Below, in pieces: positions 14,611 to 64,000 of a DNA stretch of 64,000 bases. Each line of letters begins with the position of its first letter. Within the stretch, counting starts at the first letter, position 1. Under the pieces are notes generated by a model. That model was not told where the DNA came from and searched no databases. It was given only the letters and a program-made list of their open reading frames with translations. The stretch comes from a virus. A program made the position numbers and the translations under genes. The stretch is taken from positions 17,265 to 81,264 of IMG/VR virus record IMGVR_UViG_3300032011_003203; one strand, 5' to 3'.

Positions 14611-15293
14611 TAGTAATTAAAGCAAACTCACCAACAGATGCTTGGATAAAATCACACGAGTATCTTTTAGAAAATGGTAACAAAGATGTGATGAATGAAA
14701 GTATTAATATGTCGGTAGAGATAGAAGATAACTTTGATACAGAACCTAAGTTCGATGGATTGTTTAGAGAAATCTTTGGTGATGATAGAATAGATTATGC
14801 AAGTTCAGTTACATTTGTTAAACCAACAGAACATCCTTTTATGGATGAATTACAATTCCAACAAAATGATACTAAAGTAAAGTGGAACAAAACTTATTGG
14901 GGTAGAATGATTAATTGGGATAATAGTTTCAATCAAATAGAACAAGTTATAAAAAGATTAAAAGAACATAAGAATAGTAAAACAATTGCAATGAGTATCT
15001 ACGACCCGAAATCAGATGGTAGAAAAACAATGAGTGGAATGCCTTGTTTATTATCAATAGATTTAAAACCAAGAAAAGATGGATTGTATTTAACAGCATT
15101 CTTTCGTAGTATGAGAATTAGTAAGAGTGGTTATGCTGATTGGGTTGCGTTGTGTGAGATGGCAAAGTTCTTATGTGAACAAGCAGATTTAAAATTAAAA
15201 AGAGTTACAACAATTGGTGGTTCAGTTCATCTTGGTGATATGAATAACGAAAAGAAAAATGTCAAGGAGTTACTTAGTGTGTGGAATAGTTAG
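14607..15293 (+). CDS. Thymidylate-synthase-fold enzyme (possible pyrimidine hydroxymethylase)
   Basis: 228 residues. GMPCLLSIDLKPR puts the catalytic Cys at 147, then LTAFFRSMRISKSGYADWVALCEMAKFL matches the RS-D...N region of thymidylate synthase, and TIGGSVHLGDMNN matches its dH-Y-N part. The pattern diverges from cellular ThyA: GYADWVA replaces LPFNIAS. Phages use such paralogues to make hydroxymethylated or otherwise modified pyrimidines. The exact product is unknown. ATGA overlap upstream, and asnB starts inside its 3' end. Confidence 0.75.
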   Translation: MIVIKANSPTDAWIKSHEYLLENGNKDVMNESINMSVEIEDNFDTEPKFDGLFREIFGDDRIDYASSVTFVKPTEHPFMDELQFQQNDTKVKWNKTYWGRMINWDNSFNQIEQVIKRLKEHKNSKTIAMSIYDPKSDGRKTMSGMPCLLSIDLKPRKDGLYLTAFFRSMRISKSGYADWVALCEMAKFLCEQADLKLKRVTTIGGSVHLGDMNNEKKNVKELLSVWNS

Positions 15294-27680: not shown

Positions 27681-30600
27681 ATGTTACAATATGGTTTAAC
27701 AGATAAAGACAGAGAACAATTAGAATATCCTAAACAATTGTATAGTGGTTTTGGTAGAGATGCTAATGACTTCATACATTTCTATGTCTATGATATGGAG
27801 GATAATTTATTAGAAGATGATATCCTAAAACCAGGTGATGTTTTATTCAGAGACGATAATACTATTGATTTAGATATTGGTGGACACGTCAGAGATTTAG
27901 GTTATGAAGAAGGTCAATTTAAAGTTAAGTATCTTTTTCTTAGACGATTAGCTGGTAAAAAAGAAACCATTATGGTGAACGATGAGGGATTCATCAATAT
28001 GGGAAAAATTTCTACTAAAGTTATTAATGGTAAGACAAGATATTTTAAAGGTGGAATGAAACCTACTAACCAAACATTAGAAGAAGTATTTCCAAAAGAA
28101 ATGAAGTATGTGGTGAAAGAAGTATCACCATCAAAGAATGAAGTAAAAGTAGATGTCCAATTAATTAATAATGTTTCTTATCGTAAAAACTTTGCTGGTA
28201 TAAATAAAGATTTTGTTTATGTACCAAAAAGAATTGGTGGTGCAAATGCAGGAACAGTCAGATGGGATAAAACTGATGGTAATGTTTTAATAATGACACC
28301 AGGTGTTGGTGAACGAGGATTTACAGATGCAATGGTTGGTGGTGAAGTTGTTGTTAAGGGTATGTATGAATACACTTTAACAGAAACTAAAATGGTAGAG
28401 ACACTTGTTAGAAAAGAAACAGAAGTTTTAATTAATAGACCTACGAAAAGCATACCACCAAGACCAGATGAAAAGAAAGAGTTCTTTGATGATATTGTAA
28501 AAACTACAGTCGATAAAGAACCTGTCGGAGTAAAAGAAATATTAGAAAAGACACCAGGCCCAGACCAAGATTATGATGATTATAGAGATAGGGATGATTA
28601 TGGAAGTGTTTGTTTTACTGGTGATACAAAAATTAAATTAAGTAACAATCGTACCATTCCAATTAAAATGATGAGACCTGGTATGAAAGTTAAAACCGAA
28701 CAAGGTTATGCAAAAGTATTAAAGGTAGTTAAAGATAACAGACCTTACGGAGATAAATTAGTTCGTTATAAAAATCTTACCACTACAGACCATCACCCGA
28801 TTAAACATCAAGGTAAATGGTATTTAGCAAATGAAGTTGGTACAGAATTTAAAGCTGAGGCATTAGATGTTTGGAATCTAATACTGGACAAACACCACAC
28901 TATCATTGCTAACAATATAACATCTGCAACACTTGGTAAGTGGAATAGTATTGAACATTTCTTAGGTGTTAGAGATAGAAGAATTAATATGTTGAGGGTT
29001 GCAGAAGATTTTGAAGATACTGGTGGAGGTGGTGGTTCATATGTACCACCAGCAGACCCATCACCATCAGACTCAGTAATAGAAGAGATAATGACTGAGG
29101 TAGGAGATAATATACAAACAGATGATGAGGTTGTTGATGAAAGAGGATATGCAAAAGGATTAGAACCTACTAATGAATATATTGTTGATAGGAGACCAAA
29201 AGCTTTTACAAAAGAAATAATTGAAGATTTTGCTACTGATGAAGATTCAATAGCAAAATATAAAACAGTCGTTACATTTGATACTGAATTAGTTCCAATT
29301 GATGTATTTAAACAAGTACCAGTTGATTATGTTGGTAAGGTTGTTGAAATTTTAGATTTCGATAGAATACGAGTTGATACATCTTACGAAGAGGGAGCAA
29401 ACAAATCAGACCATAGTGGGCCAGATAGATTCAATGATATCTTTACAGATTCATTTGTAACATATAGAAAAAACAAGATAACAAGATTAAATACTTATAT
29501 GGTTACTAAAGAGGGATATCATTTATGTATTAATATGTTAGATGCCCCAACACAAACTTTACCTGATAGTGATAAAAAATTACCAATAAGAGATGTAGCA
29601 GATAGAACTGCTCGTTATGTTAAAACTTATAAACCATTACCAGATACAATTGAACAAAATGATTTAGTTTATTTCGTAGAAGAAAAAATGGAGCCATACG
29701 AAGATATGGTTAAGATAACTAAATTTGTAGAAGAGGACCCCGTAGCATTATTTTTAAGAGTTCCAAATTTAAATTCAACAACCAATCCAATTAATTTTAG
29801 AAGTACTAATTTTAAAAAGTATGATGATTTAATTGGAACTGATACTTCAGTTCAAGATGATATAACGAATCACATACACTCAAGTAGTTTATTAGATGTA
29901 CAATTGGGTATTGATTATTCCATACGAACTGATGCACTTGGTAGTGATAGAACTGATTATGGATTTGGAAACTTTGTTAATTTTGGTGGAGCGGAAAATA
30001 GAATAAGAAACTTTAAAAAGAAGATAAAATTAATTGAGGGTTATAAAACTGATTCACATGCATTGATAAATATTACATCATCTGCAGATACTCGTGCAAA
30101 TATTAATATGAGAAAACGAGAAGTTATAAATAGTTTTGACCCATATGAAAATTATCTATATACAGTCTCATCAAGTTATGCAACAAGTTCTCTTGGTGAG
30201 TTCTATGATGCATCTTGGCCTAAGACAAGTGGTTCAAGAGAAGATGGCACAAACTTTATATTAGAACATACAAGTGGTTCAACATTTACTACTTGGTTTG
30301 ATACTTGGACTGGATACGCAAAAGATTTCGATACATACAATCAGAATAGATTGGTAAATAATTTACCACTGCATGTAGCAAGTGATACTGAGAATAAAGT
30401 ATTCTTAGATTTTATGGATATGACAGGACAACAATTTGATGAGATATGGGGATACATAAGACACTTTACAGATATCAATGAACGAAGTAATAAATTATCA
30501 GAGGGTATCTCTAAAGATATAGTTCGTGAAGTTGCAAAGAGTATGGGTTTTGAAGTTGATAGTGGAAATGATTTAGTTATTTTACCAGAATACTTATTAG

Positions 30601-32717
30601 GTAAAACAGCAGATGGTCAAGATAAATACGAATCACCACAAGAAGCCGTAACCGAAGAAATATGGAAAAGAATTTTAGCTAATATGCCATTCTTTATGAA
30701 GAACAAAGGTAACCAACGAGCAATGAAAGGTTTGATAAATTGTTATGGTATTCCAAGTTCTATTTTAAGAATTAGAGAATATGGTGGACCAGATTTAAAT
30801 GATAGAGTTAGTCACGAAATAAAAAGAAAGTTTAGTTACGCTGCTGATTTTAAATCAAGTGAGTATTTACAATTTCCTTGGCAAGATGATAGTACAAGTG
30901 GAATCAAACCAGAAACTTTAGAATTTAGATTTAGAGCACCAACATCAAAGGATATGACATTAGTTCAAAAGGGTGTTGGTAATCATAGTTTTGCAATTCA
31001 AATACAAGATAATGGATTAACTGATGCTTATGGTAAATTAAAATTTAGTGTATCTGCATCAACAGGTATTCAATTTATGACATCATCACTACAACCATAT
31101 TATAATAATGATATGTGGAGTGTGATGTTAACACGAGTATCACAAAGTGGGTTAGATTTAACTGCAGATGGAAATGCACAAGATATAACATATCAGTTAA
31201 CATCAAAACAATATGATGCTACAAGACAAGTTATTTTATATCAAACAAGTGAAAGTGTAAATATAGATGGAAATGCTTCAGCAGGAGCAGCGTTTAATAA
31301 ATCAGTACACGATGATGGTACATTTTATATAGGTGGTAACGGAGAGTTTGGTACAAGATTTAGTGGTTCAATGCAAGAGTTTAGATTGTGGAGTGAACCA
31401 TTATCACAAAGTGTATTTGATAATCATGTCCAAGCACCAAAGAGTTATAATGGTAATACAACAAGTTCTGCATATGATAATTTAATATTTAGATTACCAT
31501 TAAATGATAATACTGATTTAAATACTTTACCAGAATCACTTGATGATAAATCTTACACTACAAGTTATTTTCCAAGTGCGAGTGCAGTTGGATTTAGTGG
31601 TAATCCATTTAGAAGTTTAGTAGACCAAGAAAAACTAAGAGTTCCAAATGTAGGACCGTCTCGTAGAAATGCAACAAAGATTAGAACTGAGGCAACAAAA
31701 CTAACTGGTAACTTATCTTCTAATATTAGAGTTGAAGCATCATCGTTAGATTTTGCACCAATAGATAGTAATAAACTTGGAGTATTCTTCTCACCTACAG
31801 ATGTAGTAAATGAAGATATAATGTATTCATTAGCAGATATAAATCTTGATAATGAAATTGGAGACCCAAGAGACCAATATTCTGATTACTATCGTGGATT
31901 AGATAGAGTACAAAGAGATTATTGGAAAAAATATAATCGTTCAAATAACTTTTGGGATTATATGAGAATTATAGAATTTTTTGATGGTAGTATATGGAAA
32001 CAATTAAGAGCAATGATTCCAGCAAGAACAAATGCAACACTTGGTTTATTAATAGAACCAAATATTTTAGAACGAAGTAAACAAGTTGTAGGAAAAATAC
32101 CAGAGTTTGAAAATACATATTATGAAAATGCTGGACACTTTGCAGATGGAATACAATTATCAAGTAGATTAAGTAGTTCCGATTCACCAAATCCATATTC
32201 ACTATCTGGAGAATATCCAGTATATGAAAGTGAAATAATATTATACACAATGGATAGTGGTTCGGTTGGAATATTAGGAAATCCAACATTGAACAAAATA
32301 GATGAGATAGACCCACGAACACCATTCTTATCATTATACGCAACAGCAAGTATTACATTTGGTGATATAGATACAACATTTGAAGAGACAGTTCAACCCT
32401 TTATAACTGCTTCTCGTTTATCAGAACACAACGATATTAAAGTTCCTTACTATACGAGTTCATTATCAGATTCGATAGCAAAAGGATATGGATATCACAC
32501 AGAATTTAATGGAAACTATCAATTTAGTGCATCATTCGAGAGAAGTTCATTTACAAGTGTAGCACTCGATTCTTCACTATTTAGATTGTTTTATAAAGGT
32601 AGTAATTTAACAAAAGATAACACAATAGATGGACTAGACCCAGTCGAAATAACAATTACCACACCTACTAAGTTGGTAACACAAGAACCTGGTGATTCTA
32701 AGTTAAAAGTTGAGTAA
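27681..32717 (+). CDS. Very large baseplate/tail protein with internal Hint and LamG-like domains
   Basis: 1678 residues. Residues 1-300 form a beta-rich N-part. A Hint domain sits at about 311-419 (see its own entry), followed by a Gly-rich hinge (TGGGGGSYVPP). Residues about 900-1060 (FLDFMDMTGQQFDEIWGYIRHFTD...KNKGNQRAMKGLINCYGIP) match large baseplate proteins of marine T4-like phages. About 1062-1255 is a concanavalin/LamG-like sandwich (DGTFYIGGNGEFGTRFSGSMQEFRLW). It is likely a host-facing baseplate protein that is processed at the Hint. GGAGAGTAATGA upstream. Confidence 0.75.
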   Translation: MLQYGLTDKDREQLEYPKQLYSGFGRDANDFIHFYVYDMEDNLLEDDILKPGDVLFRDDNTIDLDIGGHVRDLGYEEGQFKVKYLFLRRLAGKKETIMVNDEGFINMGKISTKVINGKTRYFKGGMKPTNQTLEEVFPKEMKYVVKEVSPSKNEVKVDVQLINNVSYRKNFAGINKDFVYVPKRIGGANAGTVRWDKTDGNVLIMTPGVGERGFTDAMVGGEVVVKGMYEYTLTETKMVETLVRKETEVLINRPTKSIPPRPDEKKEFFDDIVKTTVDKEPVGVKEILEKTPGPDQDYDDYRDRDDYGSVCFTGDTKIKLSNNRTIPIKMMRPGMKVKTEQGYAKVLKVVKDNRPYGDKLVRYKNLTTTDHHPIKHQGKWYLANEVGTEFKAEALDVWNLILDKHHTIIANNITSATLGKWNSIEHFLGVRDRRINMLRVAEDFEDTGGGGGSYVPPADPSPSDSVIEEIMTEVGDNIQTDDEVVDERGYAKGLEPTNEYIVDRRPKAFTKEIIEDFATDEDSIAKYKTVVTFDTELVPIDVFKQVPVDYVGKVVEILDFDRIRVDTSYEEGANKSDHSGPDRFNDIFTDSFVTYRKNKITRLNTYMVTKEGYHLCINMLDAPTQTLPDSDKKLPIRDVADRTARYVKTYKPLPDTIEQNDLVYFVEEKMEPYEDMVKITKFVEEDPVALFLRVPNLNSTTNPINFRSTNFKKYDDLIGTDTSVQDDITNHIHSSSLLDVQLGIDYSIRTDALGSDRTDYGFGNFVNFGGAENRIRNFKKKIKLIEGYKTDSHALINITSSADTRANINMRKREVINSFDPYENYLYTVSSSYATSSLGEFYDASWPKTSGSREDGTNFILEHTSGSTFTTWFDTWTGYAKDFDTYNQNRLVNNLPLHVASDTENKVFLDFMDMTGQQFDEIWGYIRHFTDINERSNKLSEGISKDIVREVAKSMGFEVDSGNDLVILPEYLLGKTADGQDKYESPQEAVTEEIWKRILANMPFFMKNKGNQRAMKGLINCYGIPSSILRIREYGGPDLNDRVSHEIKRKFSYAADFKSSEYLQFPWQDDSTSGIKPETLEFRFRAPTSKDMTLVQKGVGNHSFAIQIQDNGLTDAYGKLKFSVSASTGIQFMTSSLQPYYNNDMWSVMLTRVSQSGLDLTADGNAQDITYQLTSKQYDATRQVILYQTSESVNIDGNASAGAAFNKSVHDDGTFYIGGNGEFGTRFSGSMQEFRLWSEPLSQSVFDNHVQAPKSYNGNTTSSAYDNLIFRLPLNDNTDLNTLPESLDDKSYTTSYFPSASAVGFSGNPFRSLVDQEKLRVPNVGPSRRNATKIRTEATKLTGNLSSNIRVEASSLDFAPIDSNKLGVFFSPTDVVNEDIMYSLADINLDNEIGDPRDQYSDYYRGLDRVQRDYWKKYNRSNNFWDYMRIIEFFDGSIWKQLRAMIPARTNATLGLLIEPNILERSKQVVGKIPEFENTYYENAGHFADGIQLSSRLSSSDSPNPYSLSGEYPVYESEIILYTMDSGSVGILGNPTLNKIDEIDPRTPFLSLYATASITFGDIDTTFEETVQPFITASRLSEHNDIKVPYYTSSLSDSIAKGYGYHTEFNGNYQFSASFERSSFTSVALDSSLFRLFYKGSNLTKDNTIDGLDPVEITITTPTKLVTQEPGDSKLKVE
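28611..28937 (+). other. Hint (intein/hedgehog-type autoprocessing) domain
   Basis: Within the preceding protein, Cys311 begins CFTGDTKIKL, the block A of Hint domains. TTTDHHPIKH (367-376) is the block B Thr-x-x-His segment, and LDKHHTIIANNI (402-413) matches block F/G. The C-terminal His-Asn followed by Cys/Ser/Thr of splicing inteins is not clear (ANNITS instead), so cleavage or ester transfer at Cys311 is more likely than clean splicing. Confidence 0.75.
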
Positions 32718-49731: not shown

Positions 49732-52700
49732 ATGGCAATCTTAAAAAGAATCAACAAATATCAAGGTTTAAAAGATATAGATATTCTTGTAGAAGAGGTT
49801 GGGTTAACTTCCCAATACTTCCAAGTTTACGATTTTCCAGACCAAGTACCACAAGGTAAATCATCATTCTTAGTTGCAGGTTCACCTTTCTTAGCAGACA
49901 ATGTAGAACTTAAAGTTGAAATTATAGATGCAGGTGGAAACACAGTCTATACTGAAGCAATAACAGATTATCTTGAGGGGAACGCACGTCGTGTATCAGT
50001 AGAGGTATATGATGATGTTGTACCTGGTGATGGTTTTATGTATATAGTAGGTGAACTCAAACCTAACTATAAACAAATATCTGGCTTAGAAGCAAATCAA
50101 GATAATATAACCGATACTCAAATAATAGACCCGGCAAGTTTTGGGCCTGGACTTGGTGCGGGTAATATACCCGATGAATTTATAGAACAAGTTAATGCAC
50201 AGAATGCTCAAGATGTGCCAGAAGAATTTCAAGGTGTTTATAATGTACGATATGTAAGACCAGTATTTATTAATGCTGCATTACCTAATTCACAACCAAT
50301 CTTTTTTTACCAACAACCAAGAATAACAGTCACGGAAGTTGTTAAACCTTTTATAGAACAATTAGCACCAAGTGGTTCAGTCGTATTAAGTGGTAGTATA
50401 GAAGCTAATCCCGCACCTGATTTGGCACCATTACCAGCACCAATAGACCCACCACCAGGTTTTCCAAAAAATCCCGCAGCAGAGGGATTGGGTAAAATTG
50501 GTCAGATAAACGAAATATTTAAATCAAGTAAAAAAGCAAAAGCTAATCCATTTAGAAATTCTGGTTTTAGGTCAAGGGGGAGATTAATACGAAGAGCATC
50601 ACCTGAACAAGATAGATTCTCAATGAAAATACACGCACTTGAAGAATCAAATGAAACCACAAAGGATAAAGCATCAAGTGCATTAGTAGGTGCAACTCTT
50701 AAAATTAAATCACCAAAGATTGATTTAGTTAAATTTCCTGCAGCTGATTTTGATATACCCGAAGTATTTGAAACAAGTGTTAAAAAAGTTTTAAATGAAG
50801 AAACAATTGTACCAGTAGATGATTTTTACATTACAAGAAAAGATACAAAAGAACAGATACCAGTACCTATTATAGCAGATGAAGTTGCTGGTGGTGGACA
50901 ATCTGAAGTTACAATGTCTTATACACCTTTTCCTGAACAATCACTTAGTGCAACACACAATCGTTCTTTTGCAGATATAACAGTCGCAAACCTAAGAACC
51001 TTTAGTGGTGATGTGTATAAAACAAAAATTTATGGTAAGAGTCAAGGTTCACTTGGAGATTTTGAATTATTACACGAGGGTACAATTGAATCACCACAAA
51101 CATTAATAGACCCATTTAGTCCAGATGGATTTTTAAATATTGGTTATTTCCACACACAGAGTATAGTGGATAGTTATTGGTTAGTAAGTGGTGGTGCTGT
51201 TACAAGAGATGATACCAAAATATTAGATGGTGTTCAAATTAGTGGTTCTAATTATGGTGTAAGTGATTCGGTTGAGTTTACAACATCAGGTAGTTTTTCA
51301 TTAGAAAAAGGTGTACCTTATTCCATTACATTTAATGCACATTATTTTAAAGAAGATAAAGTAAAATCAGATGGTAGTGTAGGAAAAGATTTTGAATTAG
51401 ATGTATTGGTAGATGAGGCAGCATTAATAGGTGGTTCGTTAGATGGTAAATACCAATCGGTTGGTAAAGTAGATTTAGATGGGTTAACTGAATTTGAAGG
51501 TACAATTCCAGGCATTTACACAACATTTTTAACACCAAGTGATGTAGGACCAACTCTTAAATTAAAATTTAAATTAAATTCTGGTAGAGCAATTATTAAT
51601 GATATAGTTGTTCGTCCACATGCAGAAACAAACTTTAATCCAGATTTCTTTAGGGTGGTATTACCAATGGCATATCCATTACCTAAACAGCCAGATTTGT
51701 ATGATTTCTTAGTTGAGTTCTATGATGTAAATAATAATATTGCAGAAACATTCACGATAGGACAAAATATAGAATTTACAGGTGCACCATTAAATATTGA
51801 TGGTGAGGATAACCTACTTAGTGGTTCGATGTTTATTGGTTCTGCACAAGGTAGTGGTTTTGAAATGGCGGGTGTATCATCTGCGTTTCTAAGGTCTATT
51901 GGATATAATGGATTTGATAAAACAATTGCAGAAAACAAGGGTGGATTTTTACTCTTTAGTGGTTCAATTGGGGATAGATTAACTGCAAGTGAAGCATATG
52001 AGGGTGTTGGATTAGAGATTGTAGATGCCCATACTTCACAAGATAGATATTTAAAATTCAGAACAAATCCAAGTACATTTGAAGTTGTTACCGACCAGTT
52101 CTTTTTAGGACAAGCTGGTAATTCTTTTGTTAGTGGTGCAAATGGTAACATAGAAATATTTTCATCAGGTACTACAACACTAAGTGGTAGTAATGTTGAT
52201 ATACTTACACCTAATTTTTATCTTGGTGGTGATAGTAATTTTATAAGTGGTAGTGGTGGAAACATAGAAATATTTAATAGTGGTACTACAACATTAAGTG
52301 GTAGTGCAGTTGATATTTTAACACCATCATTTTTCTTAGGTGGACAAAGTGCATTTGTAAGTGGTAGTGGTGGTAATGTAGAAATAAGTTCAAGTAATTT
52401 TCATTTAACTGCAGGTGGTGATGTAACGATGAGTGGTACAATTACTGCAACTGCGGGTAATATTGGAGATTTCCAAATTATAGATGGTCAGATTAGTGGT
52501 AGTAATATCACAATGAATGCAACCAATTCCACAATATTTAAAACAGACCAAGGACCTGGTTCTGATAGTGGAGAATCTTTTAGACAATTAAAAGATGAGT
52601 ATTATATTGATTTTACACCAGAGGATGAAAGTCCTGATAATTTCCATGTCAAGTTCGGACCAAACTTTTCGGTAGATAAAGATGGTGTACTTTTTGCAAG

Positions 52701-55700
52701 TGGTGCAAGATTTGAGGGTAGTATTACAGCATCACAAGGTTTGATTGGTGGATTCACTACAGATAGTAGTTCTTTCCATAGTGCACACATATTCATAAGT
52801 GGTTCACCAGCAGTTGGTGGAGCACCAAACGATAGAAATATGTTCATCTCATCTTCAAATTTCAATGTAAAAGAAGATGGTAGTATCACAGGTTCAAGTG
52901 CAAGATTTGATGGTAACACGGATATAAGTGGAACAACCACAATCGGTGGAAACTTGACTGTAGATGGAACTGGTACGATTGCATCATTTGGATTAACAGA
53001 AACAGCAATCTCAAGTTCTAATGATAATTTAATTTTAAAATCAACTGGTGAGATAACCGCATCAGCAGCAAAGATTTCTGGTGATAGTGTTGATATAGAT
53101 GTTTCACAATTTGAATTGGATGCAACTGATGTAGCAATATCATCACAACACGCATCAATGAGTTTAGGACACGATGCAGATACAAATGGTGGTGTACGAT
53201 TAGTTGGAACTAATGGTGGTAGTATTGTAATGGGAGATAACCTACCTGCAAACTTATCTGATAATGGTATCTTTATGAGTGGTAGTGGAGATTTTAATTT
53301 TCAAGGTGATACATCTAACTTTATTAGAAAGATAGGAACTGCAGTTACAATCGCATCTGAAACATTTGGATTAGATGCTGGTTCACTTATTATCAGTAGT
53401 TCAATGGATAGTGGAAAGGGAGTTATACGATTAGGTACAAGTGGTGGACCAAACTCACCAACAAGTACAACCGCAGGAATCTATATGGATGGTGGTGGTG
53501 CATTAAATGTAGTTGGAAACTCTACAAACTTTTTACGAACAGATGAGGGTTCATTAACAGTCAATACCGATACCTTAGATTTAAAAACAAGTACATTAAG
53601 AGTATCATCATCTAATGGTGGAGTAATTGCTTTAGGTGAAACCATACCACAAAAACTTGAAGCAGCTGGATTATTTTTAAGTGGTAGTGGACAATTTAGT
53701 TTTTACTCATCATCAAGGGGACACATAGTATTTGATGGTACAGATTTTAAAATAGCATCAGAAAATTTAACAATTGATACATCAACACTTGATATCAATA
53801 CTGCAGGTGGTGGTAATATCGCACTTGGTAGTGGTTCACCATCATTAACTGCAGCAGGTATTTTCCTAAGTGGTAGTGGTGATTTCAATTTTATGAAAGA
53901 TGCCAATAACTTTATACGACAAAGTGGTGGTACATTCCAAATAAAAGCTGATACATTTGATTTAGCAACTTCAACATTAATAATTGATTCAGCAGCAAAT
54001 AATGGAAAGATTGCTTTAGGTGCAACACCTAACACAAGTGTGGGTGGGACTAATAAAGGTATCTATATGGATGGTACTGGTGATTTCTTAGTAAGAGGGG
54101 ATGGTAATAACTTCTTTAAATTTGATGCAAGTGGAGCTTCGATAGAAATAAAATCAGATACATTTGATTTAGCAACAACCACATTGATATTAGATAGTTC
54201 AACAAATAGTGGTAAGTTAGCTTTAGGACAAACACCACCATCTGCACATAATAGTGGTAATGGTATATATTTTGATGGAACGGCTAAGTTCTTAATTGGT
54301 AGTGCAAGTGGAGACCATTTACAATATGATGGTGATAACTTTGATATTAAAGTTGGTTCATTAGAATTAGATGCAAGTAACATTGAGATTAGTTCAACCA
54401 ACGCATCTATGTCATTAGGAGAGGGTAACATAATACTCGATGGTGCTAATAATAAAATTAAAGTTGGTAAAACTTCTAATAAACAAGTTGAGATAGTTGG
54501 TTCATCCACACAAGGATATATTGCAACAGGTAAAACAAGTGCAACATCAACTACTGCAGGATTTTGGTTAGCAAACAACAACACAGACACAGAATTTCAT
54601 GTCGGTAATTCTTCTAATTTCTTAAAATTTGATGGTGGAGATTTCTCGATTGCATCAGACCAATTAGAAGTATCTGCTTCAACATTACAAATATCTACAG
54701 CAAATGTTTCTATGAGTTTAGGACATTCAAATGATGACCCATTTGGTACATTGATAATGAAAGGTGGTAGTACACCAACATTTGCAATGGGTAGAGGTGC
54801 AGTTAGTATGAGTTTAAATTCTGGTAGTGGTATCTTCTTTGATGGAGATGGTAACTTCAGAATGGGTGATGATGATGGTAGTTTATCAATGCAAAATGGT
54901 AACTTTAGTATTACAGGTTCTGATGTTGATATTAATGTAACTGATTTAAATATTACTTCGACTGGATTTAGATTATCATCCACAAATGCTTCGATGTCAT
55001 TAGGTACAAATGACCAATTATTTATGCACGCAAATAGTTCAAGTCCATTCCTTAGTGTTGGACAATCTACAAAAGGTTACGGACAGACAGGAACTTTCTT
55101 AGGATTTGTAAATTCAGTATCAAGACCACGAGTTTCTTTTGTGGGAAGTGCTGGACATTTTAAATTTGATACTGGTTTAGATATACAAACAGATACATTC
55201 GAACTTGATGCAAATAGTGGTGATTTACAAATATCAAGTGCTCATAAATCAATGTCATTAAATGATGGAACTATTGTATTTGATGGACCAAACAAAAAAA
55301 TAACAGTCGGTACAAGTAATGCTGTTACTATTCAAGGTGGTAGTACAGATAACTTTATTGCAATGGGTAGTAAAACTAATTTTGGTGATGAGGGAAGTGG
55401 TACTGCTGGGATATTAATCGGAATGGATTCATCAAATCCACAAGCAGAATTTGTAAAGAGTTCTACAGAATATATTATTTTTGATAATGGCGTAGATATG
55501 AAAACACTCAATTTTGAGTTGGATGCAAATGGTGGAGATTTACAAATATCATCTGCACATAAATCTATGAGTTTGGGTGGTGAAGTTAAATTAGATGGAA
55601 CAAACACAAAGATAGAAGTTGGTTCAAGTAATAAAATTACTATTCAAGGTGGAAGTACTGATAACTTTATCACTATGGGTAGTAAAACAAGTTTCACACA

Positions 55701-58700
55701 CGAGGGTAGTGGAACTGCAGGTATATTAATTGGAATGGATGGAAGTAATCCACAAGCAGAATTTGTAAAGAGTGCAACTGATTACTTTATATTCGATGAT
55801 GGTTTAGATATTAAAACTACTAAACTTGAATTAGATGCTGGTTCACTACAATTATCCAATACACAAAATTCTATGAGTTTAAGTCCTGATGGAAGTAATC
55901 CTATCAGAATGGTTGGTGATGGTACAGATGCATTTATTACAATGGGTAGTAAAGCAAGTTTTGGTAATGAGGGTAGTGGAACTGCTGGTATTATTATCGG
56001 TATGGATGGTGCTAATCCACAAGCAGAGTTTGTTAAAAACTCTACAAATTATTTTATATTCGATGATGGTATTGATATTAAAACCGATACATTCAAACTC
56101 GATACAACAAATCTCGATATAGATTCATCAACCAGTAGGATTCAAATTCATAATGGTAGTAATGAAGTTGTAAGATTAGGAGAGATAAGTGATAGTGCAT
56201 CAGATTTATATGGATTAAAGATTTATGATGGAAGTGGAACTGCATCAAGTAATACACTTGTAAAACTTGGTGGAGAGGGTAACACAATTGCTGGTTGGAC
56301 AATCAGTAATACTGCACTAACGGGTGGTAATATGATTATCCGTCAAGATGGTACAATTGAATCTGCAGGATTTGCAAGTAATGTTGCTGGAAGTGGATTT
56401 AGATTAACTGCAGCACAAGGTGGATTTTTAGAAGTAGAAAATGCTAAGATTCGTGGAACATTAGCAACTGCAGTATTTGAAAAAGAAAGTGTAAATGCGG
56501 TTGGTGGACAATTATATGTAGCAAACTCTACAGTCTTAACATCAAGTGCATTTAATCCAAATGGAATACATACTGCAGCACAAACCACAATGTCAGTTGA
56601 AAATGTTACTGGTTTTGCTAGTGGTGAAATTTTATCTTTAAAGAGAGTATCTAATACAGGTTTCTCTACTGAATATGTAAAGGTTGCAAGTTCATCAAGA
56701 ACTGATACATCAAGTGATACAAATTTTTCTGGAGAACTTTATGTTTCTCGTGGATTAGGAAATGGTGTAGCAGGAGATAGTGGTTCATTGGGAGAATCAC
56801 CTGGTGCAGCACAAGCATATAGTGGTTCACAAGTAATAGTTTCTACTGGTAAATTAAATACTGGTTACATAAGATTAAACGCAAATCCAAATGATGAAAC
56901 AACACCATATATGGATATTGTTGAAAGAACAGGTAGTAACATTTATGATGTACAATTAAAAGCTCGTTTAGGAGATTTAAGTGGATTAAGTAGTGGATTA
57001 CTATTTGGTGAAACAGACCCAGGTTTTGGATTATTTACGGAAAATGTATTCTTGAAAGGAGCAATCACTGCAACTACTGGTTCGATAACTGGTCAGTTAT
57101 TTGTAAACACAACCGATTCAGAAAGATTAATTTTAGGTGTTGATATAAGTGGTACTAACGATGGTTTACATATAAATGATAATAACTATTGGTACACGAC
57201 TGGTGCATTAAAAGTTGGTTCATCAAATTATTATTTACAAAATGATTCAAGTGGTAATTTAACACTAAGACCAAAAGAACTTGATATTAGAGTTGGTAGT
57301 GTTGATTTTGAATTATCATCTACACAACAATCTATGTCATTTGCAGATAAAGATATTTTAATAAAGAAAGATGGAAGTGATGCAAGTATTACAGTCGGTG
57401 GAACTACAAGTAAACAAATTACAATTAAGGGTAGTAATACTCAAGGATATATCGCAAGTGGTAAAACATCTGCTGCTTCATTAACAGAGGGATTTTGGAT
57501 TGCTAATAACAATACGGATGCGGAGTTCCATATTGGTGATGGTACAAGTGCAATTAAATTTGATGATAATCAATTACACATAACTTCTTCAAAATTTGAA
57601 CTTGATGTTAATGAGGGTGATTTACAAATATCATCACAACATAAATCAGCATCATATGGAAATAAAGCAATTGTAATTGATGGTTCGAAAGCATTGATTA
57701 GTGTTGGTACTACTGCAAACAAACAAATTTTTATAAGTGGTAGTACATCTCAAGGTTTAATTTATAGTGGTAAAACATCTGCTGCTTCTACAACAGAGGG
57801 ATTTTGGTTAGCAAACAATAACCAAGATATAGAATTTGTAGTTGGAGATGCAACAGATTTTATAAAGTTTGATGATAACGCATTATCATTATCTACAAGA
57901 ACTTTTGAATTAAATGCAGGTGATGGTGATTTACAAATATCAAGTGGACACACATCAATGTCATTAGCAGATGATATGATTTTATTAAAAGCAGCAGGTA
58001 ATGCAGGAAGTATTCAAGTAGGACAACATTCATCAAATAATATTATGATAACTGGTAGTACTACTGCTGGTGTTATAAAGAGTGGTAAATCAAGTGTTAA
58101 TGATTTAACTTCAGGTTTCTACATAGCAAATGATGCTGGTACAGAACAATTCCATATTGGGGATGGTACTAATGCATTAAAATATGATGGAAGTAATCTA
58201 CACATAACTGCATCACAAGTAAATTTAACTGGTGAGGGTGTAACTATAGATGTAAGCACATTTGAATTAGAAGCAGCAAATGTAGAGATATCATCTGGTC
58301 AAGCTTCAATGAGTGTTGGTTATGATGATAATCTTGCAGGTGGTATAAACATCGCAGGTGGAGCAACATCTACTATTGGGTTTGGAAGTAAAGCATCACC
58401 ACGAATGAAATTATCAAGTACCGCAACTGATTCATTTTTACAAATTGGTTCACCAACATTTGCTAATCCTGCACAAAGTGGTATTCTGATTGGTAGTGAT
58501 GGTGGAACTGCTGAATTTCACATTTATAATGCTGCAAATAAAAAGATTTCATTTGATGGTAGTGATTTTGATATAAGAACTACAAAACTTTATTTAGAAA
58601 CCACAGGTTTAAAACTAAGTGGTGATAGTGGAACTGGTACAAGTAATTACTTAGCATTAGGTTCTGCAACAAGTGCAACTGCTGGAAGTGGTATTTGGTT

Positions 58701-61700
58701 AGATGGTGGTGGAAACGCAAGATTTGGTACTGCAACCAATAGTGATAATTTTATATACTTTAATGGAAGTACACTACAAATTAAAGCAGATGATATTGAT
58801 ATTTCATCTACTGCATTTAATTTAAATGCTAATGGTGGTGATTTAATAATTTCAAGTTCAGACCATCGTATTTCATTAGCAAATGAAAATATTATATTAG
58901 ATGGTACTTCGACTGGATTTATGTCAATAGGAACTGTCACAGGTGTTACAGATACAGGTGGAAGTAACAAAGGATTTTATGCAGAGGGTGATGGAGATTT
59001 CATAACTAAAGCAGCTGCAAATAAATATATACAATTCAATGGTGGTGATTTAGATATTAAAACAGGTATCTTCAAACTTGATACCGCAAAACTCGATATT
59101 GATTCATCCGCTGGTGGAAGTGGTAGTATTGCATTAGGTGCAACACCACCAACACAATACAATAGTGGAACAGGTTTCTTTGTAGATGGTGCTGGTAAAT
59201 TCCTATTAGGAAATTCAGGTGGTAACAAAGTTCAATTCGATGGAAGTACATTGACCGTTGCTGGTACGATTAATATTATTAGTGGTGATTTGGCAGGTGT
59301 AACTTCCAATACAATTAGTGGTTCATATCCACCAGCATCTGCTTCACAAGATTTAGGTTTTGCAACACAAGTTGTGTTGGATTCTGATGGTATGAGTTTA
59401 AAGAATGCTGATGCAAGTAAAACATTAGCAACTTATGGAAAAACAGCAAAAATATTTGATGGTTTAAATTCCAACACTTATGTAGAGGTTGGTGGTAAAG
59501 GAATAACACAAGTTAGTGGAAGTGTAACGGGTAGTTTATTAACCAATGGAGTGATGAGTTTATTTGGTGCTGGTGCAGAAAAAGCAGTATTCAGTAGTAC
59601 AGGTTCATTATTCAGAGGTGATGCACAAAACACATTCACAAGAGTAGATTCAAATGGATTAACAATTGTGGATAACGGAAGTGTACAAGGTACATTCACT
59701 AATGGTACAATTAATCTTTATGGAAACAATGGTACGGATAGAAAAGTAACGATTGATTCAGATGGATTCAAGGCTTATTATGATTCAAATAATTACATAA
59801 ATGTAAATTCATCCACGATGGACATATATGCGGGTAGTAGTACTGCTGCAGCATCATTTGGAACGACTGTTACACTTCGTGGAAATAATAGTGATGCTGA
59901 TAAGATTACTATTAATAGTGGTGGAATTAAAATAACTGAGGGTAGTGCAACAATTGCAACCTTTGGTAGTAACATACATTTAAATGATGGACAAATATAT
60001 GTAGGGGTTACAGGTTCAAGTGGAGATTGGTTAGAGATTGATTCAAGTGGAATTGACATTATGAGAAATAATGTTAGTGTTGGACAATGGCAAGATTCTG
60101 CATTACGATTAGGAAAAGTATCAAACGAGCATGTTACAATCAATGATGCGGGTATGAAAGTAATGGATGGAACTACTCTGAAAGCACATTTTGGTAGTGA
60201 CATACACTTAAATGATGGGCAGATATATGTTGGTGTAACTGGTTCTGATTGGTTAGAAATTGATTCAACATCTATTGATATCAACAGAAACAATGTAAGT
60301 GTTGGTCAGTTCACAGATTCAGCTATGAGAATAGGGCGATTATCAAATGAGCATGTCATAGTCAATGATTCGGGTATGAAAGTAATGGATGGAACTACAT
60401 TGAAGGCACACTTCGGAAGTGATATCCATTTAAATGATGGGCAAATATATGTGGGAGTTACAGGTTCTGATTGGTTGGAGATTGATTCAACATCTATTGA
60501 TATATTTAGAAATAATACAAGTGTAATCAATCTAACAGATTCAGACTTTAGAATTGGTGCAGTTGCCAAAGACCATACCATCATCAATAATAGTGGTTTG
60601 AAAGTTATGGATGGTACTGCAATGAGAGCAACATTTGGAGCTGATGCTCACATTAATGGTGGGACTATTTATGTTGGTGTAACTGGTTCAAGTGGGGATT
60701 GGGTAGAGATTGATTCTAGCGGAATTGATATTATGAGAAATAATGTTAGTACTGCTAAATTTGAAGATTCTACAATTACATTAGCACCAAACACAGGTGC
60801 AGCAACAGATGATGCAGTTGTTATTTCATCAACTAATGGTGTAAAAATTTATGATAATAGTACAGACTATGTACATCTGGCTTCAGATGGTATGAGTGTT
60901 TATGCTGGACATGCAAGTAATAAATCAGCACACTTTGGTAGTACTATTTCATTATACTCAGATGGAGCGTTAGGTTCTCATAATAGAACTCTACACATAA
61001 CAGACCACGGAATAAATATTGGACAAAATACAACTGGTCCATCAGGTGCAAATACACCAAGTGCAATTATTAATAATGTAAGTATTACGGGTGCGGGTGT
61101 AAGAGTTTATGGAGATGCTACCAATACTTACGCAGATGTAGGTTCTTCTGGTTTAGATATTGTTAAAACTGGAACTAATGTTGCGAACTTTGGTGCTACG
61201 GTCAGAGTTGGTGAAGATGATAATGCCAAATCTGCATTTAGAGTTGATGGAAGTGGTAATGTTACAGTCGGAACTGGAAACACAACAAACTTTCAAGTAT
61301 TCGCAGATGGAACAGTCAGTTCATCAAACGCTATATTTGCTAAAGGTAAAATTACAGATGCTACAGCGGTTGAGGGTCTTATACAAGGATTTGTTAATAT
61401 GAAGTACACATCATCAAATGCTTCTGCAGTAGCACACACTGCATATGATTGGTATTCATCACTTGTTAAAGACAGTGCAGCTGGTGCATATACACAATAT
61501 GATAATCAATATCTAATTGATATTGGTGGTGGTTTTTCTTCAACACATAGTACAAGAGCAATTGCAGTTAACTTTATGAGATTTGATTCATCTTTTTGGA
61601 ATGATAAAGCAATTGGACATATTAGATTTCCAAGAACAGGTACTGATGCACATTTTGGTAGTGCACAAGTGTTTTTCGAGGGTGGTTCAGGTGGAGCACC

Positions 61701-62721
61701 ATACATCAATGATGCTTCCGATTTTGGTGGTAATAAATATGTATATAATAGTTCAACGCCTGCTTGGGAACAAGTTTGGTTAGATAATTTCCACATTCAT
61801 GTCGACACTGAAGATTTTGCAAAACCATTTTATCAATCTAATACCATCGGTGGAAATTCTTATGGTAATTCTTGGAGAATAACAAGTGGTATGAGAGTTA
61901 TGTTTGTAGCAAACACTTTAGATTGGAAAGTAATGCCAAACATTCAAAAGTTTGAAGGTATTAGACCTAAATTTTATAGTGGATTAAATGTAGGAAACAC
62001 CAATACAGCACACGCAACTTATGAATTATATGTTGCAGGTGATATTGGAGCAACTGGTAATGTTACAGCATATGCTGACTATGTTTGTGATGATTGTGGT
62101 TGGCATCACGCTGCAAAACCACTTGATAATATATGTCCAAGTTGTGGTGGAACAAATGTTAACTATCACGATGATGTAGCATTATTAAAACAAATTATTG
62201 ATACTACTGCAGCACATCCTACTGATATGGAGAAACAATATCAAGCATATGAAAAACTTGCAAAACTTGGGGTGATAGACATAAATATAGATAATCAAGA
62301 TGATAGGTTAGGACTAAGAGAAAAGGATATACAAGTTACTCATAATTTACATGCGTTAAACAATTATTTAATATCAGGTTTAGTTCAAGAACGAAAAAGA
62401 ACTGAGGGATTGGAAGATAGAATTGAAAAGATGGAAACAATTATTAAAACTTTTGGTGGTGAACCAGGTAAAGGAGTTGCCCACAATTTTAAAGATGGGA
62501 AGATTCAACCTTTTAATGGTGATTATTCAAAAGATGATGGTAGGGTTATTAAAATGATAAGAAATAAGGGTGTTAAGGTTTATCATAATTTTAATAAAAT
62601 GAAAGAAAGATATTGGAAGTGGGGACAAAAAGACGATATAATGAAAGAAGATTACAAACAAAATAAAGATGGTAGTGTAAACACAAAAAAACAACCAAAA
62701 CCAAAAATAACGGAGTTATAA
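49732..62721 (+). CDS. Giant tail fibre protein, 4329 aa
   Basis: Residues 1-300 are the probable attachment part with Pro-rich linkers. About 800-3700 is built from repeats: strand-turn units such as TFELDA..LQISS..KSMSL, GSGDF.F and GKTSA.ST.GFW.ANNN.DTEFH, as expected for a long trimeric beta-helix fibre. DNA-level repeats are listed apart. Near the end, CDDC (4119-4122) and CPSC (4135-4138) form a zinc-ribbon-like module, followed by a coiled-coil tail (QERKRTEGLEDRIEKMETII) that probably trimerises. It is the longest gene here and the likely host-recognition fibre. Confidence 0.85.
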   Translation: MAILKRINKYQGLKDIDILVEEVGLTSQYFQVYDFPDQVPQGKSSFLVAGSPFLADNVELKVEIIDAGGNTVYTEAITDYLEGNARRVSVEVYDDVVPGDGFMYIVGELKPNYKQISGLEANQDNITDTQIIDPASFGPGLGAGNIPDEFIEQVNAQNAQDVPEEFQGVYNVRYVRPVFINAALPNSQPIFFYQQPRITVTEVVKPFIEQLAPSGSVVLSGSIEANPAPDLAPLPAPIDPPPGFPKNPAAEGLGKIGQINEIFKSSKKAKANPFRNSGFRSRGRLIRRASPEQDRFSMKIHALEESNETTKDKASSALVGATLKIKSPKIDLVKFPAADFDIPEVFETSVKKVLNEETIVPVDDFYITRKDTKEQIPVPIIADEVAGGGQSEVTMSYTPFPEQSLSATHNRSFADITVANLRTFSGDVYKTKIYGKSQGSLGDFELLHEGTIESPQTLIDPFSPDGFLNIGYFHTQSIVDSYWLVSGGAVTRDDTKILDGVQISGSNYGVSDSVEFTTSGSFSLEKGVPYSITFNAHYFKEDKVKSDGSVGKDFELDVLVDEAALIGGSLDGKYQSVGKVDLDGLTEFEGTIPGIYTTFLTPSDVGPTLKLKFKLNSGRAIINDIVVRPHAETNFNPDFFRVVLPMAYPLPKQPDLYDFLVEFYDVNNNIAETFTIGQNIEFTGAPLNIDGEDNLLSGSMFIGSAQGSGFEMAGVSSAFLRSIGYNGFDKTIAENKGGFLLFSGSIGDRLTASEAYEGVGLEIVDAHTSQDRYLKFRTNPSTFEVVTDQFFLGQAGNSFVSGANGNIEIFSSGTTTLSGSNVDILTPNFYLGGDSNFISGSGGNIEIFNSGTTTLSGSAVDILTPSFFLGGQSAFVSGSGGNVEISSSNFHLTAGGDVTMSGTITATAGNIGDFQIIDGQISGSNITMNATNSTIFKTDQGPGSDSGESFRQLKDEYYIDFTPEDESPDNFHVKFGPNFSVDKDGVLFASGARFEGSITASQGLIGGFTTDSSSFHSAHIFISGSPAVGGAPNDRNMFISSSNFNVKEDGSITGSSARFDGNTDISGTTTIGGNLTVDGTGTIASFGLTETAISSSNDNLILKSTGEITASAAKISGDSVDIDVSQFELDATDVAISSQHASMSLGHDADTNGGVRLVGTNGGSIVMGDNLPANLSDNGIFMSGSGDFNFQGDTSNFIRKIGTAVTIASETFGLDAGSLIISSSMDSGKGVIRLGTSGGPNSPTSTTAGIYMDGGGALNVVGNSTNFLRTDEGSLTVNTDTLDLKTSTLRVSSSNGGVIALGETIPQKLEAAGLFLSGSGQFSFYSSSRGHIVFDGTDFKIASENLTIDTSTLDINTAGGGNIALGSGSPSLTAAGIFLSGSGDFNFMKDANNFIRQSGGTFQIKADTFDLATSTLIIDSAANNGKIALGATPNTSVGGTNKGIYMDGTGDFLVRGDGNNFFKFDASGASIEIKSDTFDLATTTLILDSSTNSGKLALGQTPPSAHNSGNGIYFDGTAKFLIGSASGDHLQYDGDNFDIKVGSLELDASNIEISSTNASMSLGEGNIILDGANNKIKVGKTSNKQVEIVGSSTQGYIATGKTSATSTTAGFWLANNNTDTEFHVGNSSNFLKFDGGDFSIASDQLEVSASTLQISTANVSMSLGHSNDDPFGTLIMKGGSTPTFAMGRGAVSMSLNSGSGIFFDGDGNFRMGDDDGSLSMQNGNFSITGSDVDINVTDLNITSTGFRLSSTNASMSLGTNDQLFMHANSSSPFLSVGQSTKGYGQTGTFLGFVNSVSRPRVSFVGSAGHFKFDTGLDIQTDTFELDANSGDLQISSAHKSMSLNDGTIVFDGPNKKITVGTSNAVTIQGGSTDNFIAMGSKTNFGDEGSGTAGILIGMDSSNPQAEFVKSSTEYIIFDNGVDMKTLNFELDANGGDLQISSAHKSMSLGGEVKLDGTNTKIEVGSSNKITIQGGSTDNFITMGSKTSFTHEGSGTAGILIGMDGSNPQAEFVKSATDYFIFDDGLDIKTTKLELDAGSLQLSNTQNSMSLSPDGSNPIRMVGDGTDAFITMGSKASFGNEGSGTAGIIIGMDGANPQAEFVKNSTNYFIFDDGIDIKTDTFKLDTTNLDIDSSTSRIQIHNGSNEVVRLGEISDSASDLYGLKIYDGSGTASSNTLVKLGGEGNTIAGWTISNTALTGGNMIIRQDGTIESAGFASNVAGSGFRLTAAQGGFLEVENAKIRGTLATAVFEKESVNAVGGQLYVANSTVLTSSAFNPNGIHTAAQTTMSVENVTGFASGEILSLKRVSNTGFSTEYVKVASSSRTDTSSDTNFSGELYVSRGLGNGVAGDSGSLGESPGAAQAYSGSQVIVSTGKLNTGYIRLNANPNDETTPYMDIVERTGSNIYDVQLKARLGDLSGLSSGLLFGETDPGFGLFTENVFLKGAITATTGSITGQLFVNTTDSERLILGVDISGTNDGLHINDNNYWYTTGALKVGSSNYYLQNDSSGNLTLRPKELDIRVGSVDFELSSTQQSMSFADKDILIKKDGSDASITVGGTTSKQITIKGSNTQGYIASGKTSAASLTEGFWIANNNTDAEFHIGDGTSAIKFDDNQLHITSSKFELDVNEGDLQISSQHKSASYGNKAIVIDGSKALISVGTTANKQIFISGSTSQGLIYSGKTSAASTTEGFWLANNNQDIEFVVGDATDFIKFDDNALSLSTRTFELNAGDGDLQISSGHTSMSLADDMILLKAAGNAGSIQVGQHSSNNIMITGSTTAGVIKSGKSSVNDLTSGFYIANDAGTEQFHIGDGTNALKYDGSNLHITASQVNLTGEGVTIDVSTFELEAANVEISSGQASMSVGYDDNLAGGINIAGGATSTIGFGSKASPRMKLSSTATDSFLQIGSPTFANPAQSGILIGSDGGTAEFHIYNAANKKISFDGSDFDIRTTKLYLETTGLKLSGDSGTGTSNYLALGSATSATAGSGIWLDGGGNARFGTATNSDNFIYFNGSTLQIKADDIDISSTAFNLNANGGDLIISSSDHRISLANENIILDGTSTGFMSIGTVTGVTDTGGSNKGFYAEGDGDFITKAAANKYIQFNGGDLDIKTGIFKLDTAKLDIDSSAGGSGSIALGATPPTQYNSGTGFFVDGAGKFLLGNSGGNKVQFDGSTLTVAGTINIISGDLAGVTSNTISGSYPPASASQDLGFATQVVLDSDGMSLKNADASKTLATYGKTAKIFDGLNSNTYVEVGGKGITQVSGSVTGSLLTNGVMSLFGAGAEKAVFSSTGSLFRGDAQNTFTRVDSNGLTIVDNGSVQGTFTNGTINLYGNNGTDRKVTIDSDGFKAYYDSNNYINVNSSTMDIYAGSSTAAASFGTTVTLRGNNSDADKITINSGGIKITEGSATIATFGSNIHLNDGQIYVGVTGSSGDWLEIDSSGIDIMRNNVSVGQWQDSALRLGKVSNEHVTINDAGMKVMDGTTLKAHFGSDIHLNDGQIYVGVTGSDWLEIDSTSIDINRNNVSVGQFTDSAMRIGRLSNEHVIVNDSGMKVMDGTTLKAHFGSDIHLNDGQIYVGVTGSDWLEIDSTSIDIFRNNTSVINLTDSDFRIGAVAKDHTIINNSGLKVMDGTAMRATFGADAHINGGTIYVGVTGSSGDWVEIDSSGIDIMRNNVSTAKFEDSTITLAPNTGAATDDAVVISSTNGVKIYDNSTDYVHLASDGMSVYAGHASNKSAHFGSTISLYSDGALGSHNRTLHITDHGINIGQNTTGPSGANTPSAIINNVSITGAGVRVYGDATNTYADVGSSGLDIVKTGTNVANFGATVRVGEDDNAKSAFRVDGSGNVTVGTGNTTNFQVFADGTVSSSNAIFAKGKITDATAVEGLIQGFVNMKYTSSNASAVAHTAYDWYSSLVKDSAAGAYTQYDNQYLIDIGGGFSSTHSTRAIAVNFMRFDSSFWNDKAIGHIRFPRTGTDAHFGSAQVFFEGGSGGAPYINDASDFGGNKYVYNSSTPAWEQVWLDNFHIHVDTEDFAKPFYQSNTIGGNSYGNSWRITSGMRVMFVANTLDWKVMPNIQKFEGIRPKFYSGLNVGNTNTAHATYELYVAGDIGATGNVTAYADYVCDDCGWHHAAKPLDNICPSCGGTNVNYHDDVALLKQIIDTTAAHPTDMEKQYQAYEKLAKLGVIDINIDNQDDRLGLREKDIQVTHNLHALNNYLISGLVQERKRTEGLEDRIEKMETIIKTFGGEPGKGVAHNFKDGKIQPFNGDYSKDDGRVIKMIRNKGVKVYHNFNKMKERYWKWGQKDDIMKEDYKQNKDGSVNTKKQPKPKITEL
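52078..52404 (+). repeat. Tandem 114-bp coding repeats in fibre gene
   Basis: Units of 38 codons start near 52078, at 52192 and at 52306. The two full ones read VDILTPxFxLGG, then GSGGNIEIFNSGTTTLSGS. The first unit is diverged at its start and the third at its end. They code for successive beta-helix turns. Confidence 0.8.
55201..56100 (+). repeat. Long near-tandem coding repeats in fibre gene
   Basis: Three units with TIQGGSTDNFI.MGSK, then EGSGTAGILIGMD and NPQAEFVK, followed by a TFELDA strand block. Matching points of the first two (55330 and 55642) are 312 bp apart, which is 104 codons. The third is shorter at its front. Confidence 0.75.
59926..60839 (+). repeat. Four tandem 222-228-bp coding repeats in fibre gene
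   Basis: Units begin at 59926, 60154, 60376 and 60598. The middle two are 222 bp (74 codons) apart; the first is 228 because of two extra codons (SSGDW for SDW). Each reads KVMDGTTLKAHFGSDIHLN, DGQIYVGVTGS, DWLEIDS and ends in an NEH.I.N.SG stretch. High identity points to recent duplication. Confidence 0.85.
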
Positions 62722-62722
62722 T

Positions 62723-63151
62723 ATGAGTACAAAGTTTATATATGAAGCTGATATTAATTTAAATATTTTAAATGATACAATACAAGGTGGTGAAATTCAT
62801 TATAAATTTCACGAAGATGTTGATGGTTGGTATTATGATGAAATGAAATGGAAAGGTGGACAATTTAAAATTGACCTTAATGTAAATAAAAATACAACAA
62901 ATCTTAGACATGTATATGATTGGATAAATCTACCTTTATCACAATCAAATTGGTATAATGATTTTGTAAAAACTAATTATAATTTAGCTACTGGTTCATT
63001 TACAATTAAATCACAAGAACCAGATGATTTTAATTCAAGTCTTTTTAAAACCCACGGCGGTGCATTTCCATCAATGTCTACATCACCATATAGTGGACGA
63101 TGGGGATTTGGTTTTGGTAGTGGTTCATTTTCAGTAGTGGAGTATCCATAA
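62723..63151 (+). CDS. Hypothetical structural protein, 142 aa
   Basis: Starts two bases after the fibre gene. Mostly beta (FIYEADINLNIL, GGEIHYKFHEDVDGWYYDEMKW) with a Gly/Ser-rich end (RWGFGFGSGSFS). Its place suggests a fibre-associated or assembly protein. TAATG overlap with the next gene. No family. Confidence 0.65.
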   Translation: MSTKFIYEADINLNILNDTIQGGEIHYKFHEDVDGWYYDEMKWKGGQFKIDLNVNKNTTNLRHVYDWINLPLSQSNWYNDFVKTNYNLATGSFTIKSQEPDDFNSSLFKTHGGAFPSMSTSPYSGRWGFGFGSGSFSVVEYP

Positions 63152-64000
63152 TGGCAAGAAGTAGTGGAGAAGCTTTGGGTTTGGGACAATTAGGTTATGC
63201 AACAGGCCATAATGCTAATTCAACAACATCAACATCAATGAATACAGTCTCTGGTGGTACTTCAACAGTCTCAATAGATGATTTTGGAATAGATAGTCTT
63301 GATGTAATTGGTGTCGAGGATACAACACCAGATGAGGGTAGTACGATGGCAGTTACTCTTGGGTTTGATGGTAAGGGTAGTTTATTTTTAACCAAGATAG
63401 GTAATCAAACTCGAAACTTTACTTGGGGTGGAACTGCAGGTGGTAGTTATGCAAGTGCAGATTATTCAGCACAATGGACTGCTCCTTCAGTAACTTCTAA
63501 TGCTGCAGGAAATTTAAGTTGTACATTTCACGATGGATTTAATGACCATGTCACAAATTATAATTCTGCACAGACAGTTAACATTACTGTCCAAGAAACA
63601 GGTGGGGGTGGTACTGGTGGTGGTGGTAGTTGTTTTATAGCTGGTACGGAAATATTAATGAGTGATAATACTTGGAAACGAATCGAAACCATAACATTCG
63701 ATGATGTTGTTAAATCAGTTCAAATTCCAACATTACCTGATGCTGATGAATATGCAGTTTATGCTACTTGGCAAGCAACTACACTTAATAATATGGTGAG
63801 TTCATCTGCAGAGGTAGTGTTGAATCAAGGAGATTATTACTATGACCACTATGAAATAATTGATGCAGAAAATAATGTTATAAAAGCAACACACGAACAC
63901 CCGTTATTAATTCAAAGATATCACGATGAAGTAGATGTTGATGGTACAAGTAGAATGATTTATAGATGGGTAAGGGTTCGTGAATTATTAGCAAGTGATA
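63151..64000 (+). CDS. Structural protein with Hint domain, 3' end cut by window
   Basis: 283 codons are visible and the frame stays open at the window edge. Residues 1-150 are a Ser/Thr-rich part with an immunoglobulin-like look (about 60-145, VTLGFDGKGSLFLTKIG). A GGGGTGGGGS linker leads to Cys161, which opens a Hint domain: CFIAGTEILMSDNTWKRIE (block A), then THEHPLLIQR (block B, His residues). The rest of the Hint domain lies beyond. It is the second Hint protein of this phage and probably autoprocesses at Cys161. TAATG overlap with the previous gene. Confidence 0.75.
   Translation, partial: MARSSGEALGLGQLGYATGHNANSTTSTSMNTVSGGTSTVSIDDFGIDSLDVIGVEDTTPDEGSTMAVTLGFDGKGSLFLTKIGNQTRNFTWGGTAGGSYASADYSAQWTAPSVTSNAAGNLSCTFHDGFNDHVTNYNSAQTVNITVQETGGGGTGGGGSCFIAGTEILMSDNTWKRIETITFDDVVKSVQIPTLPDADEYAVYATWQATTLNNMVSSSAEVVLNQGDYYYDHYEIIDAENNVIKATHEHPLLIQRYHDEVDVDGTSRMIYRWVRVRELLASD

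Follow-up and report, generated by a model that had tools for sequence, protein, structure and literature searches.

Genes at the locus

The window, that is, the whole stretch of 64,000 nt analysed here, spans positions 17,265–81,264 of the IMG/VR record IMGVR_UViG_3300032011_003203 and ends where the 81,264-bp record ends. Its last open reading frame (63151–63999, plus strand) is still open at this edge, leaving a visible fragment of 283 aa that follows a giant fibre gene and carries most of a Hint domain; a second, different Hint lies further upstream:

28608–28937, plus strand: Vint-type Hint, residues 310–419 of a 1678-aa protein encoded at 27681–32717 (PF14623, E=6.3e-19)
49732–62721, plus strand: giant repetitive fibre of 4329 aa, upstream of the Hint gene
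62723–63151, plus strand: 142-aa ORF of no clear family, separating the fibre gene from the Hint gene
63151–63597, plus strand: N-terminal domain of the Hint protein (residues 1–149), a predicted seven-stranded beta-sandwich common to most of the family
63601–63630, plus strand: Gly-rich linker GGGGTGGGGS (residues 151–160), evident in the sequence and predicted to be disordered
63631–64000, plus strand: 5' part of a Hint domain resembling bacterial intein-like (BIL) type A domains (residues 161–283 of 161–331), the remainder lying past the record end

The missing portion could be read from the IMG/VR contig L002, which matches window positions 57151–64000 at 99.91 % identity over 6,850 bp and reaches the window's last base. 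The full protein comprises 335 aa, its Hint portion being completed at L002:6481–7005, and closes with IAHN followed by EVGK (C-terminal end ...NVEVTDSYIVRWGDKMVIAHN followed by EVGK; over blocks F and G, ...FYSLNVEVTDSYIVRWGDKMVIAHN followed by EVGK). A sequence-only reading had proposed that Cys161, placed after GGGGTGGGGS, opens a Hint domain containing THEHPLL. This is borne out by the sequence itself, by invariance across 70 relatives, and by the Hint fold recovered with AlphaFold and Foldseek; beyond position 64000, where the proposal could have failed for want of C-terminal Hint blocks, both F and G are present. Block A Cys161 is encoded at 63631–63633, while block B (T247-H-E-H250) forms the start of THEHPLL (residues 247–253, 63889–63909). 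Pfam returns a suggestive match to Hom_end_hint for the window protein (E=0.009–0.011, below cut-off).

In the AlphaFold model, pLDDT lies near 90 for the greater part of the Hint domain and drops below 50 at linker residues 152–158, directly ahead of the putative cleavage site between Ser160 and Cys161. The strands of the N-terminal domain were placed at residues 49–148; this domain has conserved residues of its own (A2) and is matched at E=8e-30 by a profile built from the N-terminal domains of other groups, whereas the Foldseek list for the model is dominated by Hint and does not fix its nearest fold. GenBank phages searched with the window protein gave no match, and searches with relatives matched in the Hint half only. 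Gene context and relatives also support the earlier designation as a structural protein, making the window's last gene a probable virion protein gene.

Conservation and class of the Hint domain

Scans with the window protein and a five-member alignment retrieved more than 80 viral loci, at which the relatives share about 27–41 % identity with the window protein. Among 70 distinct relatives, none departs from Cys161, Asp172, His250, His330, or Asn331, and 67 keep Thr247. The residue after Asn331 (+1) is Lys, followed by Gly, in about 60 of these 70 and Thr in one; Cys or Ser never occurs. In the window member, read through L002, +1 is Glu and the Hint ends four residues (EVGK) before the stop codon. 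Two architectures exist among the relatives, with either a tail of 4–21 aa or a domain of about 100–145 aa, mostly Fn3-like, after the Asn.

BIL domains (6y75/6tmm, 2lwy) rank first by both profile and fold, before inteins and Hedgehog: the best Foldseek match is BIL2 6y75 (E=4e-10), and profile matches in the PDB include the Tetrahymena BIL2 domain (7e-8) and a Clostridium BIL domain (3e-7). The NCBIfam intein N-terminal model also matches the closest complete relative, above cut-off. BIL type A domains are defined by a conserved His-Asn and by cleavage instead of ligation (PMC7765530; PMC7664689). With type A representatives (Clostridium thermocellum BIL 2lwy; Tetrahymena BUBL1 BIL2 6y75/6tmm), the phage domain shares an endonuclease-free Hint fold, the block A Cys, the block B TxxH, the terminal His-Asn, and the absence of a +1 Cys or Ser that could serve as splicing nucleophile. 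Unlike them, it lies beside fibre or tail genes, is frequently C-terminal or close to it, carries Lys-Gly after the Asn, and is tied to a GT4-like glycosyltransferase (GT) gene. Type A domains typically occur in variable, non-conserved bacterial proteins, whereas those described here reside on phage contigs in conserved gene order, a mismatch of distribution and not of chemistry. We therefore regard the window Hint as BIL-A-like, its chemistry being predicted from the invariant Cys, His, and His-Asn and the lack of a +1 Cys or Ser.

Three other assignments were considered and rejected. An intein does not fit, as +1 is Glu and the Hint stands four residues before the stop codon instead of being inserted inside a conserved host protein. 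The Hedgehog Hog domain (1at0; fold match E=2e-5) likewise places a C-terminal Hint behind an N-terminal domain to be released; the window protein, however, retains His-Asn and has only four residues after Asn331, with no sterol-recognition region. The pretoxin HINT family (PF07591) stays below cut-off in the relatives and is absent in the window protein, and no domain follows the Hint.

A glycosyltransferase partner

Beyond anything in the earlier reading is a strict link between these Hint genes and a single GT gene, which directly adjoins 86 of 88 Hint copies, the other two lying at contig ends. To avoid circularity, a fresh scan was run with the GT's own profile, and a Hint neighbour was found for 80 of 80 GT genes (downstream only in 69, on both sides in 11). 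Both samples share contigs and contain related phages, so these counts of loci are not independent events. In L002, the gene after the Hint overlaps its stop codon and starts as a glycosyltransferase before the contig end cuts it, so that ~127 aa from the start of the GT of the window phage can be read. The same Hint/GT pair occurs in LR756508, an uncultured phage genome of 484 kb.

The modelled GT (pTM 0.85) adopts a GT-B fold resembling GT4 enzymes (Foldseek match 6eji, 1.8e-10) and contains the EX7E motif as EPFGYSIF[EQ] (A3), the second Glu at times being Gln; Pfam gave no match. The enzyme probably glycosylates part of the Hint proteins or an attached or partner fibre, although the linkage denotes a shared pathway and does not identify the Hint protein as acceptor. 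Literature searches, with subscription papers out of reach, yielded Hint domains and inteins in phage terminases and no Hint/GT virion module, and the gene pair thus seems undescribed.

Cassette organisation and N-terminal variety

A tree of 49 Hint domains, in which long branches leave the deepest joins unsure, resolves three sets that track gene position. Hint-1 proteins, including that of the window, are encoded upstream of the GT (split 80/86), and Hint-2 proteins downstream of it, the copy of L003 being set apart; an Fn3 set (support 100/99) likewise lies downstream of the GT, before a T4-like tail sheath gene. The window gene occupies the upstream position in a Hint-1/GT/Hint-2 cassette. 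Since locus L009 has the order fibre (related to that of the window), Hint-1, GT, Hint-2, the GT and a Hint-2 gene are predicted to follow right after window position 64000; a search for sequence extending past L002 returned that contig and relatives, and no Hint-2 belonging to the window phage itself.

What stands in front of Hint-1 at this locus varies, with at least three N-terminal parts that are unrelated to one another. The window protein and L003 have the Ig-like domain; L034, L052, L074, L080, and L086 have a stretch rich in Gly; and in L004, the Hint follows a giant protein part of >1,200 aa. The Hint is thus a portable module. One N-terminal domain was also found without a Hint, ending near the expected Hint start. 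Conserved as well as portable, the BIL-like Hint recurs across a large number of environmental phages and is strictly coupled to a single GT. Two divergent cases were seen as well: at L056:1741-2979, a Hint in the Hint-1 position ends in VHSET, with His-Ser replacing His-Asn, and at L034:8322-9014, a third Hint-like ORF lies at the locus edge outside the cassette (Intein_splicing E=5e-5, below cut-off).

A second Hint of another type

The expectation that this phage encodes two Hint-bearing proteins holds true, the second being the Vint domain within the protein at 27681–32717. Characterised by Cys311, DHHP, and HTIIANN, it barely matches the profile of the window Hint family, and searching the 81-kb record in six frames with this profile revealed no second member of that family; GenBank phages gave no match to the window region containing the Vint. 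Both domains belong to the Hint superfamily and start with Cys. The Vint (PF14623), however, sits internally rather than C-terminally in a probable tail protein, ends in ANN and not in HN, thus lacking the terminal His-Asn, and falls into a separate subfamily. The phage therefore carries two different Hint types, Vint and BIL-A-like, and not two uses of one module. That Hint processing recurs in this virion type, as had been suggested, is supported by relatives with one to three such genes at the locus.

Proposed mechanism and alternatives

We consider it probable (roughly 0.68) that the gene encodes a two-domain precursor from which BIL-A-like cleavage frees the N-terminal domain, as the Hint-1 component of a Hint-1/GT/Hint-2 cassette whose GT probably glycosylates the Hint proteins or the fibre. 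The precursor would consist of an Ig-like beta-sandwich virion domain, the flexible Gly linker, and the C-terminal Hint with His-Asn and four further residues. Aided by block B Thr247 and His250, Cys161 would attack the Ser160-Cys161 bond, and the resulting N-S acyl shift would place a thioester on the N-terminal domain; Asn331, assisted by His330, would cyclise and cut off the tail. Water or some other nucleophile would then, for the most part, open the thioester, so that the mature N-terminal domain comes free without intein-type splicing. Cleavage is expected over such splicing because +1 is never Cys or Ser and only a short tail or an Fn3-like domain follows. The likeliest outcome is thus that the N-terminal virion domain is set free, while which bond is cut, and when, is not given by the conserved active site alone. 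Autocleavage, virion location, and the target of glycosylation are what we infer from the comparisons above. As a counterpoint, it is unclear what benefit there would be in keeping His-Asn before a tail of four residues. Of the two uses named by the sequence-only reading, self-cleavage appears well supported by residue conservation; crosslinking is a possibility.

Such crosslinking, in which an amine or hydroxyl of another virion component would resolve the thioester and leave the N-terminal domain covalently attached to the particle, seems rather unlikely to us. The invariant Cys161, the absence of a +1 Cys or Ser for splicing, the flexible linker ahead of the thioester, the differing N-terminal parts on one Hint clade, and a best fold match to a BIL domain from the Tetrahymena BUBL locus would all suit it. 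No acceptor has been identified, however, the protein ends four residues past the Hint with no Hedgehog-like sterol-recognition region, and hydrolysis requires nothing more. Comparable transfers are the attachment of cholesterol by Hedgehog and the BIL-ubiquitin proteins of ciliates. A bolder and more doubtful version would turn the cassette into a conjugation system for virion proteins, in which Hint thioesters transfer virion domains onto an acceptor made or primed by the partner GT; this acceptor might, just as speculatively, be a glycan or a glycosylated fibre. If true, it would be a phage analogue of Hedgehog- or BUBL-type ligation.

Splicing without a side-chain nucleophile is improbable as well. 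Here, cyclisation of the Asn would free the +1 amine to attack the thioester, and the N-terminal domain would gain the tail (EVGK in the window protein, KGxx elsewhere) or the Fn3-like domain. It would explain why His-Asn persists in 70 of 70 relatives even before tails of 4–9 aa and why Lys-Gly follows in about 60 of them. A BIL domain has also been reported to ligate without nucleophilic side chains, to judge from the title of Aranko 2013 as cited in PMC7664689. Yet, BIL domains mostly yield cleavage products (PMC7664689), and the window's EVGK deviates from KG. That the Hint has lost catalysis and is kept as a stable structural domain is very improbable. In its favour are weak Pfam scores and Ser309, which falls, when block F is aligned by hand, where inteins usually have Asp; against it, all catalytic positions are unchanged across 70 diverged members, a pattern difficult to account for without catalysis.

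The chemistry of BIL domains is known, but to our knowledge few roles have been assigned to them. Through the Hint/GT pairing, self-cleavage becomes connected with the assembly or decoration of virions, which hints at a new route by which virion proteins may be processed or decorated; two or three genes would suffice to test the role. Natural Hint domains without a +1 nucleophile may also serve as protein-engineering tools.

Occurrence and further observations

By profile, the same Hint family extends to Phage NCTB, Erwinia phage Y3, and relatives (PHROG 38766), whose genes lie among tail and fibre genes and are annotated as intein-domain or virion structural proteins; their N-terminal parts are unmatched by the N-domain profile, and no GT partner was found in NCTB/Y3-type records. 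Among reference genomes, the one real source was a Flavobacteriales MAG with two contigs carrying both Hint and GT genes, probably phage contamination; a Pelagibius Hint from the same search proved unrelated.

The C-terminal part of the 4329-aa fibre (window 62200–62721) contains VTAYADYVCDDCGWHHAAKPLDNICPSCGG, a zinc-ribbon-like CxxC...CxxC. At the corresponding place, the related L003 fibre has an apparent intramolecular-chaperone end (ITAYSDIRDKENIE...), the start of which seems to be lacking in the window fibre. Downstream of Hint-2 in L003, L004, L034, and L038 are genes resembling fusions of a Glyco_transf_7 galactosyltransferase-like part with a Laminin_G/ConA-like lectin (Pfam support from L034), which together with a nearby Methyltransf_24 gene look like a sugar-modification cluster beside virion genes. 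Finally, an asparagine-synthase-type amidotransferase (Pfam) and a carbamoyltransferase-like gene (recognised by eye) occur in the same phage, at window 15259–16782 and L006:1010-2509, which suggests further glycan or small-molecule modification.
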